Shown here: one piece after another, positions 8,533 to 14,288 of the stretch | How the letters are laid out: every line of letters starts with the position of its first letter | Position numbering within the stretch: the stretch's first letter is position 1 | Assembly (NCBI GenBank): GCA_021647785.1 | Contig: JAKIUC010000006.1 | Location: forward strand, 1-64,000 | Source of the DNA: Melioribacteraceae bacterium | GTDB lineage: Bacteria > Bacteroidota > Ignavibacteria > Ignavibacteriales > Melioribacteraceae | Length of the DNA: 64,000 bases | Direction: 5' to 3' | Translations under genes and position numbers: made by a program | The notes under the pieces: generated by a model | What the model was told of the DNA's origin: nothing | The model's input: the letters and a program-made list of their open reading frames with translations, nothing else | Database searches by the model: none

Positions 8533-8597
8533 GGCTAACAAAAGCTATAAGCAATCCCGAAAAAGAATCGGGACTGCTCATAGCAAGGTCGTTAGCG
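8533..8597 (+). repeat. attC-like site 1, closing the type I RM locus
   Basis: A nested imperfect palindrome: outer arms GCTAAC (8534-8539) and GTTAGC (8591-8596); unpaired spacers AAAA and AAGGTC; inner arms GCTATAAGCA (8544-8553) and TGCTCATAGC (8575-8584), differing at one pair; then a variable terminal stem TCCCGA/TCGGGA around AAAAGAA. Outer box, spacer, inner box and variable tip is the architecture of integron attC recombination sites (R''-L''-tip-L'-R', with cutting at G/TT). The outer boxes depart from the textbook RYYYAAC/GTTRRRY consensus at one position. The inner arms recur at 11576 and 14231. No integrase gene is in the window, so function is inferred. Confidence 0.65.
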
Positions 8598-8665: not shown

Positions 8666-9586
8666 ATGAATACGCAAGAGAAAGCATTAGCAAGAATACT
8701 TTTTGAGAATAAATTATTTAGATCTGATGGACAGAGTTTCGAAGACTTATTTACTGAAATAATGTCGCTCTCAGAATTAAATTTTCGGAAAATTAAAGCT
8801 TGGGGGAATATTGGAGACAGAAAAAATGATGGTTACATCTCTGACAAAGGTATTTATTTTCAAGTTTTTGCCCCAGAGGATATAAGGAAAAGTTATCCCA
8901 ACGTTATAAAAAAAATTAAAACTGATTTTGCTAAATTATTAGACCAATGGAAACCTGTAAATGAATTTTATTTCGTTGTAAATGATAAATTCAATGGCGT
9001 AAATGCTGATTCTGAAAAAACACTAAAATCATTAACTGATAAATATAAGTTACAAAAAAGTGGATTTCTTACTTCTGATGATTTAGCAAGAAAAGTATTT
9101 TCTCTTGATGAAGACCAAATCCTAAAAATTGTTAGTTGTCTTCCAAATGTTGAAAATGTTGAAAATGTAGTTAATTTAGATTATTCCACTTTAAAAGAAG
9201 TCATTGGATTTATTATGAAAATGCCTTTATCCCCAGAAGAAGGTGAAATAAAATTTCCAGATTGGGATAAAAAAATTGAGTTCAACAAACTTAGTTCATA
9301 TTCTGCACACTTGTTGAATAATGGGTCTACAAAATTAGGGAACTTAAATAAATATCTTGCAAACCAATCTTTCTTGGCAGAAGAGTTACAACGGCAACTA
9401 ATTGGTATATATGAAAAAATAAAAACAGAATGGTCAAATTTAGATTATGTTGGTGAGAATATATTTTGGGAAATAGTAAATGAATGTTCGCCAAAACACG
9501 AAAACACCTATCAATCAGCTGTTATAACTATTTTGTCTAAATATTTTGAAAGCTGTGATATTTTTGAAGAACCAACTAAAGAGTAA
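8666..9586 (+). CDS. ABC-three-component (ABC-3C) system protein, probable effector component
   Basis: This 306-residue soluble protein is the first gene of a three-gene set. Its N-terminus (QSFEDLFTEIMSL...FRKIKAWGNIGDRKNDGYIS then GIYFQVFAPED) has the short Gly-Asp-x-x-Asn-Asp-Gly signature seen at the start of ABC-3C effector proteins, probably a small nuclease-like or sensor domain. The C-terminal half is helical and matches the shared ABC-3C C-terminal region in position. The family call rests on this signature and on the neighbours (small middle component, then DUF2326 ATPase). The role is phage defence by inference. It is 4 bp from the next gene. The promoter box lies just upstream and no conventional ribosome site is seen. 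Confidence 0.65.
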   Translation: MNTQEKALARILFENKLFRSDGQSFEDLFTEIMSLSELNFRKIKAWGNIGDRKNDGYISDKGIYFQVFAPEDIRKSYPNVIKKIKTDFAKLLDQWKPVNEFYFVVNDKFNGVNADSEKTLKSLTDKYKLQKSGFLTSDDLARKVFSLDEDQILKIVSCLPNVENVENVVNLDYSTLKEVIGFIMKMPLSPEEGEIKFPDWDKKIEFNKLSSYSAHLLNNGSTKLGNLNKYLANQSFLAEELQRQLIGIYEKIKTEWSNLDYVGENIFWEIVNECSPKHENTYQSAVITILSKYFESCDIFEEPTKE

Positions 9587-9589
9587 TTT

Positions 9590-9832
9590 ATGATAATGCC
9601 TTCTAAACATATTAATTTTTCACAGTCCTTATTAGGATTTGGAAGTTATATCCTATCAAAATTAAATACCCCAAAAACTATTGATGATTTGTGGAAAGAA
9701 TATCAGTTTGATTTAAAAAATGAATTGTATATGGCATCACATTCTTTTGATAGTTTAGTCTTAACTTTAATATTTTTATATGGAGTTAATACTATTGAAG
9801 AACAAAACGGAATTATAAAAAAATGCGTTTAA
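9590..9832 (+). CDS. ABC-3C system middle component (MC6-like)
   Basis: This 80-residue protein reads MPSKHINFSQSLLGFGSYIL, then LNTPKTIDDLWKEYQF, and ends with a helix and strand (FDSLVLTLIFLYGVNTIEEQ). Small proteins with a hydrophobic LLG helix followed by a TIDDLW-type motif are the middle component of ABC-three-component systems, bridging effector and ATPase. ATG 9590 is used; a second in-frame ATG follows two codons later and may be the true start. Its 3' end overlaps the ATPase gene by 10 bp, which implies translational coupling. Confidence 0.65.
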   Translation: MIMPSKHINFSQSLLGFGSYILSKLNTPKTIDDLWKEYQFDLKNELYMASHSFDSLVLTLIFLYGVNTIEEQNGIIKKCV

Positions 9833-11559
9833 TAGAATTATCAGCAAATAAAAAGAGTTTTAAAACAGTTCAATTTAAAAATCATATTGGGCTAAACATT
9901 ATTGTTGCTAAAATAAAAAATCCAGAGCAATCTAAAAAAGGAGATACAACTAACGGAGTAGGGAAATCATTATCAATCTCACTAATTCATTTTTGCCTTG
10001 GGTCTTCATCTAATAAAGAATTCGAAGAAAAATTAAGCGGTTGGATTTTTAAGTTGAAATTTTCTATTAAGGAGAATGAATACATTGCCGAACGTTCAAC
10101 CGATAATCAAAAGACAATAAAATTAAATGGTAGAGAGCTTAAACAAAGAGAATTTAATTTAGAATTACAGCAACTACTTTTTGATATACCAGAAAATGTT
10201 AGTCAGCTTTCTTTTCGTTCTTTATTACCTTTCTTTATTCGCCCAAACAAAGCTTCTTATACTGAATTTAAAAACCCAAATGCTGTAAAAAATGATTTTC
10301 AAATACTTATCACTAATGCCTTCCTTTTAGGTTTAGATGTTATACTTGCTGAGAGTAAATTCAAATTAAGGAAAGAAAAGGAAAGAATAAGGAAGTTAGT
10401 AAAAGAGCTAAGTGATGATAGGTTATTAAAAGATTTTTTTATTGGGAAAAGAGATATTCGTTTAGCCTCTCAAGAATTAGACGAACAAATTAAATTACTT
10501 GACAACAATTTAAAAAACTTTGAAGTTGCAGAAGATTACAATGAAATCAAAATAGAAGCCGATAAAATAAAAAGAAAATTAGATAAAATTCAAAATCAAA
10601 TAATTCTTTATAAAAACCAAATAGAAAATATTGAAGAAAGCAGGAAAATATCTCCTGATATCAAAAAAGAAAATATTGAAAAAATTTACAAAGAAGCAAC
10701 GGTTATTATTAAGAAAGAATCAATAAAACAACTTTCTGAATTAGAGAAGTTTTATCAACATATCACGGTAAATAGAGAAAAAAGATTACTTCTTCAAAAA
10801 AATGAATTTATCCGTAAAATAGAAGATTTAACAATTCAAAAGGAAGAAAAAGGCAATAGCTTAGATGAAAAATTGAAATATCTTGATACTCATCAAGCAT
10901 TAGATATTTTTGTGAAACTCACTAATAAATTATCTGAACTAACAAGAGAAAAAGAAAATATAAATAATTACAATAATCTATTAAAAGGATATAGCGAAGA
11001 GAAACTTAGAATAAATGAAAGCTTTATTAATGAAACAAAAAAGACGACAAGTTATTTAAGTGAGGCAGAAGAAACTATCAATTCTCTTATGTTATTTTTT
11101 AGAGAGTTATCAAAAAGGTTTTATCCAAACTCGGCTGCTGGTATAACTGTTTATAATAACGATGGCGATAACCAACTCCGATATAATTTTGATGCTAAAA
11201 TTGAAGCTGATGCTTCAGATGGTATTAATAGTGTCAAAATATTTTGTTATGATTTAACTATTCTACTACAGGGATTTGCTCATAGTCTCAATTTTATATA
11301 CCACGATAGCAGACTTTTGGATGGAATTGACCCAAGACAAAAAGCCGAATTGTTTTTGATTCTAAATGATTTAATAGAGCCAAACGGAAAGCAATATATT
11401 CTATCATTAAATCAAAATCAGCTTGATGATACAAGAAATTATTTGACTGATGAGGAATATAAAACAACAATTGAAAGCAACATTATTCTACAATTAAAAG
11501 ATGACTCACCAGAAGACAAATTGCTTGGTATTCAAGTTGATTTGCATTACGAAAAATAA
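9823..11559 (+). CDS. ABC-3C system ATPase with DUF2326 domain (SMC/RecN-like)
   Basis: This 578-residue P-loop ATPase has a Walker A TNGVGKSL at residues 43-50, followed by SISLIHFCLG. A long coiled coil (roughly 170-420, rich in Lys, Glu and Ile) separates the two halves of the ATPase head. The C-terminal half carries SDGINSVKIFCYDLTILLQG and FIYHDSRLLDGIDPRQ, hallmarks of DUF2326 proteins, where the HDS/D-loop region completes the ATP site. Such SMC/RecN-like proteins are the motor or sensor of ABC-three-component defence systems. It is the last gene of the set and is followed after 6 bp by attC-like site 2. Confidence 0.75.
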   Translation: MRLIELSANKKSFKTVQFKNHIGLNIIVAKIKNPEQSKKGDTTNGVGKSLSISLIHFCLGSSSNKEFEEKLSGWIFKLKFSIKENEYIAERSTDNQKTIKLNGRELKQREFNLELQQLLFDIPENVSQLSFRSLLPFFIRPNKASYTEFKNPNAVKNDFQILITNAFLLGLDVILAESKFKLRKEKERIRKLVKELSDDRLLKDFFIGKRDIRLASQELDEQIKLLDNNLKNFEVAEDYNEIKIEADKIKRKLDKIQNQIILYKNQIENIEESRKISPDIKKENIEKIYKEATVIIKKESIKQLSELEKFYQHITVNREKRLLLQKNEFIRKIEDLTIQKEEKGNSLDEKLKYLDTHQALDIFVKLTNKLSELTREKENINNYNNLLKGYSEEKLRINESFINETKKTTSYLSEAEETINSLMLFFRELSKRFYPNSAAGITVYNNDGDNQLRYNFDAKIEADASDGINSVKIFCYDLTILLQGFAHSLNFIYHDSRLLDGIDPRQKAELFLILNDLIEPNGKQYILSLNQNQLDDTRNYLTDEEYKTTIESNIILQLKDDSPEDKLLGIQVDLHYEK

Positions 11560-11565
11560 CGAAAC

Positions 11566-11689
11566 GCTAACATAAGCTATAAGCAATAGCGGTTGAAGTT
11601 ACAACTTCATACAACCTGTTCAATAAATTTATCAGCGATTATAAGTATTACTAATTTTTCCGCTACTGCTCATAGCAAGGTCGTTCGAG
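11566..11689 (+). repeat. attC-like site 2, closing the ABC-3C cassette
   Basis: The left outer box CGCTAAC (11565-11571), inner arms GCTATAAGCA (11576-11585) and TGCTCATAGC (11667-11676), tip stem TAGCGG/CCGCTA (11587-11592, 11660-11665) and spacer AAGGTC followed by GTTCGAG (11683-11689) repeat the plan of site 1 with a longer loop. The left box does not pair with its downstream GTTCGAG, but is an exact 7-base complement of GTTAGCG at the beginning of this cassette (8591-8597). That is expected if the cassette was once circular and recombined at G/TT. Confidence 0.65.
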
Positions 11690-11862
11690 TCAATCTTCCC
11701 TTCGGGAAAGATTGACTCGAACGGCTCGGGGACAAGTCCCTTGTCCTGTGCTCTCTTCCCTTCGGTCAGACAGCCCAGAACAAGGGATATACAGAATCCA
11801 AAATACCAGAGTTCTCCGAACTCCGTATTTTGAACTCTGCATATCCCCGAGCCGTTATGGGC
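11683..11862 (+). repeat. Gene-less palindromic cassette with a second kind of attC-like site
   Basis: GTTCGAGTCAATCTT (11683-11697) and its exact complement AAGATTGACTCGAAC (11708-11722) form a 15-bp stem. It is followed at once by GGCTCGGGGA (11723-11732), which pairs with TCCCCGAGCC (11844-11853). Inside are further stems (TCCCTTGT/ACAAGGGA, AAAATAC/GTATTTT, GAGTTC/GAACTC). After the right arm comes GTTATGGGC. No open frame of note exists here. Read as an integron cassette, it begins TTCGAG and its left box CTCGAAC complements that start exactly. As a plain repeat it is a cruciform-forming MITE. Unlike the other sites it has no spacer between outer and inner arms. Confidence 0.55.
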
Positions 11863-11934
11863 AAGGCGAAAAGTTGATGGTATACTAAAGTTTCAATTTT
11901 ATACAACAAAAAAAACTCTTCCAAATATTGGCAA

Positions 11935-11989: not shown

Positions 11990-12730
11990 ATTGTTATCGC
12001 AAAGAGCAAATTACATATCGAAAAACTAAAATCATTTTTTATCAAAAAGGATGATTTTACTACAAAAGACATTGGTAATTTTTATAAAAAGTTCGAACCG
12101 TTTATAAAACGCACAACTATAAATTGGCGTATTTATATTTTGGCACGAAACGGTATAATAACTCGTATAGGCAGAGGAAAATACACACTTTCAAAAAAAC
12201 GTATTTATATACCGGAAATTTCACGTAGAGCAAAACTACTTAATGGTAGATTAAAAAAGCAATTCCCTTTTTCTTCGGCTTGCTTATGGGATACTTCAAT
12301 CCTAAATGAATTCGCAATTCACCAGGCAAACAAGACATTTTTATTAATTGAAGTAGAAAAAGAAATAACTCAATCTGTGTTTTATTTTTTAACCGAAAAA
12401 GGTTATAAGGTTTTTATTGAACCATCAAAAGATATTATTGACAAATACGCATCACGCAATAATAATTATCTCATTGTTAAAACATTAATATCGGAGGCTC
12501 CAACACAAAAAGTTAATAATATAAATACAGTTACGTTGGAAAAACTTTTGGTGGATATATTTTGTGATAAAACAATTTTCCTCGCATATCAAGGGAATGA
12601 AATGAAAAGAATATTTTCATCTGCTTTCAAAAAGTATATAGTAAACGGAAGTAAATTATTACGATATGCAAACAGACGTGGAAGGAAAAAGGAAATCGAA
12701 AACTACACAAACCTAATTAACGGCAAGTAA
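11990..12730 (+). CDS. abiEi: AbiEi-like antitoxin of a type IV toxin-antitoxin / abortive infection system
   Basis: AbiEi binds DNA and antagonises the AbiEii nucleotidyltransferase. The frame encodes an N-terminal winged helix (IEKLKSFFIKKDDFTTKDIG, then NWRIYILARNGIITRIGRGK, i.e. a recognition helix and a GRGKY wing) followed by the AbiEi C-terminal domain (SSACLWDTSILNEFA..., NTVTLEKLLVDIFCDK...). The reading frame is open from 11975, but has no in-frame ATG or GTG; the only TTG (12140) would delete the winged helix. Translation probably begins at an ATT near 11990, or the start has been lost. It lies 25 bp before abiEii and behind a promoter shared in sequence with the ABC-3C cassette. 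Confidence 0.75.
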   Translation: MVIAKSKLHIEKLKSFFIKKDDFTTKDIGNFYKKFEPFIKRTTINWRIYILARNGIITRIGRGKYTLSKKRIYIPEISRRAKLLNGRLKKQFPFSSACLWDTSILNEFAIHQANKTFLLIEVEKEITQSVFYFLTEKGYKVFIEPSKDIIDKYASRNNNYLIVKTLISEAPTQKVNNINTVTLEKLLVDIFCDKTIFLAYQGNEMKRIFSSAFKKYIVNGSKLLRYANRRGRKKEIENYTNLINGK

Positions 12731-12755: not shown

Positions 12756-13829
12756 ATGATAAACCAAGAAAAAATAAATATCGAATGGATAAAGAAAATC
12801 TCAAAAGAAAATAGAAATGCAGATAAAATTCTGATTGAAAAAGTTATTCGTGCATTACTATTATTAGAAGGACTTGTAAAACAAAAGGCAAATTTTGTTT
12901 TTAAAGGTGGTACAGCATTAATGTTGCATTTCAAATCCACCAAAAGGCTTTCAATTGATATTGATATAATACTGCCGGAAGAGAGTAAAAATATTGATGT
13001 TATATTAGATGAAGTAGTAAGCCAACAAGGTTTTACAAGAAAAGAATTTCAAACAAGGACATCATCATCAAAAATTAAAAAAGCTCATTTTAAATTTTTC
13101 TATACGCCGTTTTATAAAACGAACAAAACGGAAGATTATGTTCTGCTGGATATACTATTTGAAAAATCGAACTATCAAAATATTGTTCAGTTGCCAATAA
13201 CATCTACTTTCGTTCCGATTATCAATAATCCCATTTTGGTAAAGGTACCCTCGTTGGAAGATATTCTCGGCGATAAACTCACAGCATTTGCTCCTAACAC
13301 TACCGGAATTCCATATTTCAAAAACAAAAATAGCATGAGTATGGAGATAATTAAACAGCTTTATGATATCGGGAATTTATTTGATAGAGTTGAAAACGTA
13401 GATGTTATTAAAAATACTTTTCAAAAATTTGCAAAAACAGAATTAAGATACAGAAATATTAAAGATTGCACTGAGCAAGATGTAATTGAAGACATTTATC
13501 AAACGGCTTTAACTATTGCAAGCAGAGGAATTGACGGAAAGGGAAATTTTGAACAATTGCAACTTGGAGTACAAAGGATTAAAACCTTTATTTTTTCTGA
13601 AAGTTACAATATAGAAAAAGCGATTGTACATGCTTCTAAAGCTGCATATCTTGCAATGTTAATAAAAACCGATTCAAAAATAATTGAAAGATTTAGCAAC
13701 CCGTTAGAAATGAAAGATTGGCTTATTGATAAGCCGATGAATAATAAATTAAACAAACTAAAAAAATCTAATCCCGAAGCTTTTTTCTATTGGTATAAGA
13801 TTTATGAATTAAAAACGGAAGTAGAATAA
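12756..13829 (+). CDS. abiEii: AbiEii-like nucleotidyltransferase toxin
   Basis: This 357-residue protein is a DUF1814/AbiEii nucleotidyltransferase. The diagnostic motif FVFKGGTALMLHF at about residues 47-59, then STKRLSIDIDIILPE, gives the nucleotidyltransferase GG...S and DxD metal site. The next block LVKVPSLEDILGDKLTAFAP is the second conserved family motif. AbiEii toxins modify tRNA or other targets with nucleotides and are released from AbiEi control during phage infection, causing growth arrest. It follows abiEi by 25 bp, the usual bicistronic arrangement. Start ATG 12756 gives the normal family length. Confidence 0.9.
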   Translation: MINQEKINIEWIKKISKENRNADKILIEKVIRALLLLEGLVKQKANFVFKGGTALMLHFKSTKRLSIDIDIILPEESKNIDVILDEVVSQQGFTRKEFQTRTSSSKIKKAHFKFFYTPFYKTNKTEDYVLLDILFEKSNYQNIVQLPITSTFVPIINNPILVKVPSLEDILGDKLTAFAPNTTGIPYFKNKNSMSMEIIKQLYDIGNLFDRVENVDVIKNTFQKFAKTELRYRNIKDCTEQDVIEDIYQTALTIASRGIDGKGNFEQLQLGVQRIKTFIFSESYNIEKAIVHASKAAYLAMLIKTDSKIIERFSNPLEMKDWLIDKPMNNKLNKLKKSNPEAFFYWYKIYELKTEVE

Positions 13830-13831
13830 TT

Positions 13832-14237
13832 AAAAAAAAATTCAACCCTAAATTTCTATTTAATATTTGTGTGCTTGGCGAAGTTTCAGAAGTATTTCAA
13901 ATACGAAAAGAGTTAAATAATTATTTTGAAAAAATAGGGATTAAAACTACCGATTGGAATATAGATTTAATTTAATAATAAGAAATTGCAAAGTAGTAAT
14001 ATTTTACGCGCCCTTTATAAAGGTCAAAGTAAATATTCTGTTATAATAACATGGCAAATTTTTCATCATTCAGGAAAAGGTAATACAAAAGCAAATATAA
14101 TTTCAGAATTAAAAAATGATAAATATATTCCTTACTGTATAGGTAGTAATCCTAAAGATTTATTAACTCCTGAAAAAATGATAGAAACAATAAATAACTA
14201 TTTAAAGGAAAAGCCCAGCCTACAACAAAAGCTATAA
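13832..14237 (+). pseudogene. Broken gene of unknown family between abiEii and attC-like site 3
   Basis: Two adjacent frames look protein-like but lack a start and are out of register. Bases 13841-13975 read FNPKFLFNICVLGEVSEVFQ...DWNIDLI and stop. Bases 13986-14237, one frame over, read SSNILRALYKGQSKYSVIIT, then QIFHHSGKGNTKANIISELK and a closing helix. Together they would make one roughly 135-residue protein cut by a frameshift near 13975. There is no ATG in either part, only a TTG at 13986. The frame ends inside attC-like site 3, as cassette genes often do. I do not recognise the family. Confidence 0.4.
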
Positions 14238-14288
14238 GCAATCCCGCAAAGAGAGCGAGTCTGCTCATAGCAAGACCGTTGGCTGCGT
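14219..14288 (+). repeat. attC-like site 3, closing the AbiE cassette
   Basis: CTACAAC (14220-14226), AAAA, inner arm GCTATAAGCA (14231-14240), a tip with TCCCGC and GCGAGTC, inner arm TGCTCATAGC (14262-14271), AAGACC and GTTGGCTGC (14278-14286). The inner arms are identical to those of sites 1 and 2. The left box GCCTACAAC pairs 7 of 9 with the start of its own cassette (GTTATGGGC at 11854) and 6 of 9 with the adjacent GTTGGCTGC, so here the exchange test is not decisive. Confidence 0.6.

Follow-up and report, generated by a model that had tools for sequence, protein, structure and literature searches.

A short non-coding element in the 64,000-nucleotide stretch analysed here (the window; contig JAKIUC010000006.1 of a Melioribacteraceae bacterium) is probably a gene-less integron cassette that would be moved by the integron integrase (IntI). 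It carries hardly anything beyond its recombination site and is most likely a passenger spread by the integron. Gene-less cassettes are already known; what is new is that nearly the whole unit forms a hairpin, whose outer fold is predicted to shut the attC spacer. If this reading is correct, an integron can spread a non-coding cassette consisting almost entirely of a recombination site, and the element provides a natural test of the effect of spacer pairing on attC use. The features considered are listed below in window coordinates.

8537-8593, plus strand: attC site (attC model; in the training set of the model)
9823-11559, plus strand: DUF2326 protein of 578 aa, encoded in the upstream cassette (ORF and domain search)
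11569-11685, plus strand: attC site immediately preceding the cassette (attC model; in the training set)
11683-11722, plus strand: hairpin 1, a perfect 15-bp stem with arms 11683-11697 and 11708-11722
11684-11854, plus strand: putative gene-less cassette, 171 bp (ends common to copies on other contigs; circular fold)
11720-11856, plus strand: outer AAC...GTT unit with two branches inside its stem (fold and alignment of copies)
11771-11864, minus strand: inner attC-like site, with AAC at 11779-11781 and GTT at 11854-11856 (attC model R1)
12140-12730, plus strand: DUF6577 protein, downstream of the element (domain search)
12756-13829, plus strand: AbiEii-family protein, downstream of the element (domain search)
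14224-14280, plus strand: attC site after the genes of the next cassette (attC model; in the training set)

The unit between the two G^TT points, 171 bp long, begins with the TT that follows the upstream crossover G and ends with its own final G. The preliminary description had placed the element at 11683-11862; the unit itself was retained, but its right end was revised, since position 11862 takes in the first bases of the next cassette. The perfect 15-bp stem that was said to run straight into a second stem, with further stems nested inside, was indeed present: hairpin 1 continues without a gap into an outer stem with the arms GGCTCGGGGA (11723-11732) and TCCCCGAGCC (11844-11853), inside which two more branches are nested. 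Folding of 173 nt gave -50.4 kcal/mol for the top strand (z -11.3) and -60.4 kcal/mol for the bottom strand (z -12.7), and none of 200 shuffles folded as well in either case. Perfect 15-bp hairpins with loops no longer than 30 nt gave four matches in the window, two of them hairpin 1, and none in six first-order Markov sequences simulated at the same length. Taken by themselves, the outer 10-bp arms are not rare, with 26 such matches in the window versus 7 to 24 across the six simulations under slightly different counting rules; it is the combination of stems that stands out. A coding reading of the element was tried and rejected, as each of the two frames that are open throughout in this genome holds a stop in the copy from G002, a genome of the same genus; the earlier statement that the element carries no gene thus held. 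Nowhere in the window was the gathering threshold of an Rfam family attained.

In the circular form, hairpin 1 is the helix between the beginning of the cassette and its outer R'' box. Folding of the circle was predicted to pair 146 of the 171 bases of the bottom strand, at -61.2 kcal/mol, compared with 136 of the top strand, at -50.9 kcal/mol. Because the start pairs with the outer R'' box in the circle, most of the bottom strand could close into a single branched hairpin. We infer that IntI would excise the unit and insert it at attC sites through the folded bottom strand, as with other cassettes; once inserted, the outer fold would pair the attC spacer.

An integron integrase gene is present in the genome. 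The TIGR02249 profile matched at C95:103130, on the contig that carries the window, with 390.8 bits against a cut-off of 265, but the reading frame of the gene (L045:3071-4094, at about 103 kb of C95) is broken near its 3' end. Within the genus, three of five genomes exceeded the curated TIGR02249 cut-off (this genome, G003, and G001); all 14 control genomes also matched the profile, none of them above it. In the 47 kb read around the integrase (C95:60000-106861), the attC model detected no attC site.

A similarity search of the genome for further occurrences of the motif, as suggested in the preliminary description, found the element, whole or in part, at eight places. These eight places account for 14 matches together with five reverse self-matches of hairpin 1 and one 25-nt match on C10. 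The element is complete on C95 (the window copy), C16, and C65; the C65 copy differs from that of the window at five positions, and the C16 copy is identical to it over 174 nt, with unrelated flanks. Since the C95 and C16 copies agree exactly and yet sit in different flanks, the unit itself must have moved or been copied. The same observation argues against a decayed remnant of an attC cluster that is now immobile and was copied by recombination or by duplication of flanking DNA. That explanation, which we regard as very improbable, would account for several truncated copies (30 nt kept on C14; 45 nt kept at C52:3018, followed by an ORF6N gene whose profile match starts at position 10) and for one copy that was probably split by an insertion sequence. 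In the latter case, the copies on C58 and C92 both break off at the same CTC, where similar insertion-sequence ends begin, and an rve-domain protein is encoded beyond the cut on C92 (L030); a single copy was probably split into these two parts, with a 3-bp duplication. In addition, contig C52 begins inside an element copy.

The attC model was built from 12 sites of this genome, and its scan of the genome gave 24 matches at E ≤0.01, or 22 after removal of two on the opposite strand, a count that is possibly a lower bound since 150 of 9467 first-look candidates were scored and the E-values are rough. These 22 sites scored 35.5 to 131.9 bits. Their distribution around the window copy agreed with the attC flanks described earlier, with one site directly upstream of the element, another further upstream, and a third downstream. 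Five of six preserved left ends adjoined an attC site (C95, C65, C52, C58, and C14), the sites on C58 and C14 lying outside the training set of the model and the other three inside it, and the orientation relative to attC was identical at all five junctions. Bounded by G^TT points, the element is thus found next to attC sites except on C16, where the best upstream score was 7.4 bits and no attC was detected by the model. The C16 copy (L026:9253-9426) is located behind an rRNA operon, with a 5S rRNA gene at 8938-9054.

These junctions bear on a second explanation, in which the element is non-autonomous, MITE-like or otherwise, inserts at the R' end of attC sites with duplication of GTT, and is moved by a transposase rather than by IntI. 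Like a MITE, the element is short, rich in strong hairpins, gene-less, and present in several near-identical copies; the GTT found at each end can be explained equally well by a 3-bp duplication and by cassette recombination, and the C16 copy sits outside any detected attC. However, the ends of the element are not inverted repeats of each other (judged by eye), and a single orientation was observed at the five attC junctions. The random scatter with target-site duplications that had been proposed as the mark of a MITE was not found among the six left ends, C16 apart. With the two further observations given below, namely an attC of the local family inside the element and complementarity of its start to its own outer R'' box, the transposase reading is disfavoured, and we consider it unlikely.

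On its bottom strand, the right part of the element is scored by the attC model as a divergent member of the family to which the flanking attC sites belong. For the right-hand 94 nt (11771-11864), 33.9 bits were obtained on the bottom strand versus 4.0 on the top. The inner sites of the other copies scored 32.0 (C92), 31.8 (C16), 28.3 (C65), and 25.8 bits (G002_C49), and the copy at the end of contig C52, absent from the list obtained with default filters, reached 28.9 bits for the bottom strand, compared with 4.0 for the top, with filters off. The score was strand-specific in all five copies of this genome with a right end (28.3 to 33.9 bits). A predicted attC is thus present at the 3' end of the unit, although all of the inner-site scores fall below the weakest of the 22 genomic sites (35.5 bits). 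The claim of a gene-less cassette beside attC sites was supported, while the assignment of its recombination site to a different sequence family was not. An attC of the local family in the right place and on the right strand counts against a MITE.

Two folds compete for this region. On the inserted bottom strand, the outer fold was predicted at -61.2 kcal/mol and the forced inner fold at -54.3 kcal/mol, the outer being about 7 kcal/mol more stable. The central spacer is unpaired in the predicted inner fold and absent from the more stable outer fold; accordingly, the earlier remark that the element has no spacer applies to the outer stem and fails for the inner one. Folding of both strands, which had been suggested as a check for the extrahelical bases of attC sites, gave a mixed outcome: no such base was seen near the spacer, and a single additional base is predicted on the R''-L'' arm of the inner stem, close to the tip. 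The flanking attC at 8537-8593 has no extrahelical base in its L stem. An unpaired central spacer is described for attC sites in PMC2727003, where deletion of the extrahelical bases of a Vibrio cholerae repeat, combined with pairing of its spacer, reduced bottom-strand insertion at attI1 8.5x10^4-fold. By analogy, a similar effect may apply to the element. A self-locking site can be imagined, in which the outer fold shuts the attC spacer and the R' box, and refolding into the inner form would free a normal attC. The cassette would then set its own mobility and act as a minimal parasite of integron arrays; this elaboration is possible, yet we would not expect it to be correct.

The right ends were consistent with cassette structure. 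At four of the five preserved right ends, the next cassette begins at the GTT of the element and its start matches its own R'' box at six or seven of seven positions (C16 7/7, C92 7/7, C65 6/7, and C52 6/7); the cassette that follows in the window matches at 4/7. The C65 cassette measures about 4.5 kb, with four frames of at least 90 aa on the strand of the array. The start of the element itself matches its own outer R'' box at 7/7 within the 15-bp stem, and its inner R'' box at 6/9, including GTT. A match of 8/9 between the inner R'' box and the next cassette of the window copy was given no weight. For the nine cassettes with both ends in hand, the element included, own start/R'' pairs matched at 48 of 63 positions (permutation P ~1.5e-5), whereas non-own pairs averaged about 2.15 of 7; with the element left out, the count was 41 of 56 (P ~1.8e-4), the remaining three cassettes contributing 5, 3, and 3 of 7. 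Cassette starts in these arrays thus tend toward complementarity with their own R'' box. The element shares this property through its outer R'' box, which counts against movement by a transposase.

Conservation was examined with the copies in G002, which are incomplete (three fragments), and no attC was detected alongside them by the attC model. The G002 sequence differs at 15 of 146 positions (90% identity). Seven stem pairs are changed, four of them on both sides, and all seven stay paired. The four two-sided pairs compare with a mean of 1.3 in shuffled versions (reached in 6 of 500 shuffles) and with 0 or 1 in slid versions, the covariation being based on only three distinct sequences. Of 58 pairs, the G002 copy keeps all on the bottom strand and 54 on the top, and the C65 copy 56 and 53, respectively; the strand-specific changes do not uniformly favour the bottom strand, as two pairs break there in C65.

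The strand on which pairing is kept also bears on a regulatory cassette, one that would serve its neighbours as a promoter, terminator, RNA structure, or insulator. The ATG of the next cassette lies 28 (C16), 37 (C65), and 28 nt (C92, by eye) past the end of the element, two terminator-like stem-loops, one per strand, were predicted at 11807-11825 (shuffles gave a mean of 0.5 for the whole scanned region of 1 kb), and gene-less Vibrio cassettes with promoter activity are described in PMC11014356. However, no sigma-70-like match was found within the unit, and neither of the two Bacteroidota-type patterns tried begins within it. Moreover, in three of four aligned rows, two of which are identical, four pairs out of 58 can form on the bottom strand alone, which does not agree with an RNA transcribed in the direction of the array. 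We therefore judge a regulatory role to be improbable and retain the gene-less, IntI-moved cassette as the preferred explanation.

The element has a narrow distribution. Sequence searches matched two of 58 relatives and two of 79 genomes of the family, this genome being counted in both, and a covariance model of the element found the same two among 164 genomes of the order under stricter filters. No match at E ≤0.01 was obtained in plasmids or phages. The exact two-arm pattern was absent from viral contigs and occurred in one record among genome contigs, an uncultured Ignavibacteriales contig, in a set from which records of this genome may have been excluded. For an empty-site comparison, one gene beside a G002 copy had no match in this genome or in G001 and only 27-33% matches in G004 and G003, and no empty site was obtained.

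With respect to known systems, the closest likeness is to the ORF-less cassettes of Vibrio, which also carry an attC without a gene. Those tested were 491-666 bp long and their attC sites 101-127 bp (PMC11014356), whereas the element measures 171 bp, is mostly self-complementary, and occurs at several places in one genome. It differs from attC sites in that its outer stem would pair the spacer and in the placement of its single candidate extrahelical base, near the tip rather than near the spacer. Literature searches limited to open-licence papers gave no title or abstract opening that mentions an attC-only or fully self-complementary cassette, which is weak evidence of absence.

Defence-type genes were observed in and before the array between 1977 and 13829 of the window, comprising a type I restriction R subunit, the ABC-3C domain CTD10, a HerA-like helicase domain, and the AbiEii-family protein; a RhuM-family protein (PF13310; 4070-5104) is located immediately ahead of the R subunit. 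In another genome of the same order (G037:C58, L102:3426-4750), three attC-like sites were found within 1.4 kb, the third scoring 30.3 bits, in the form of a compact cassette array.
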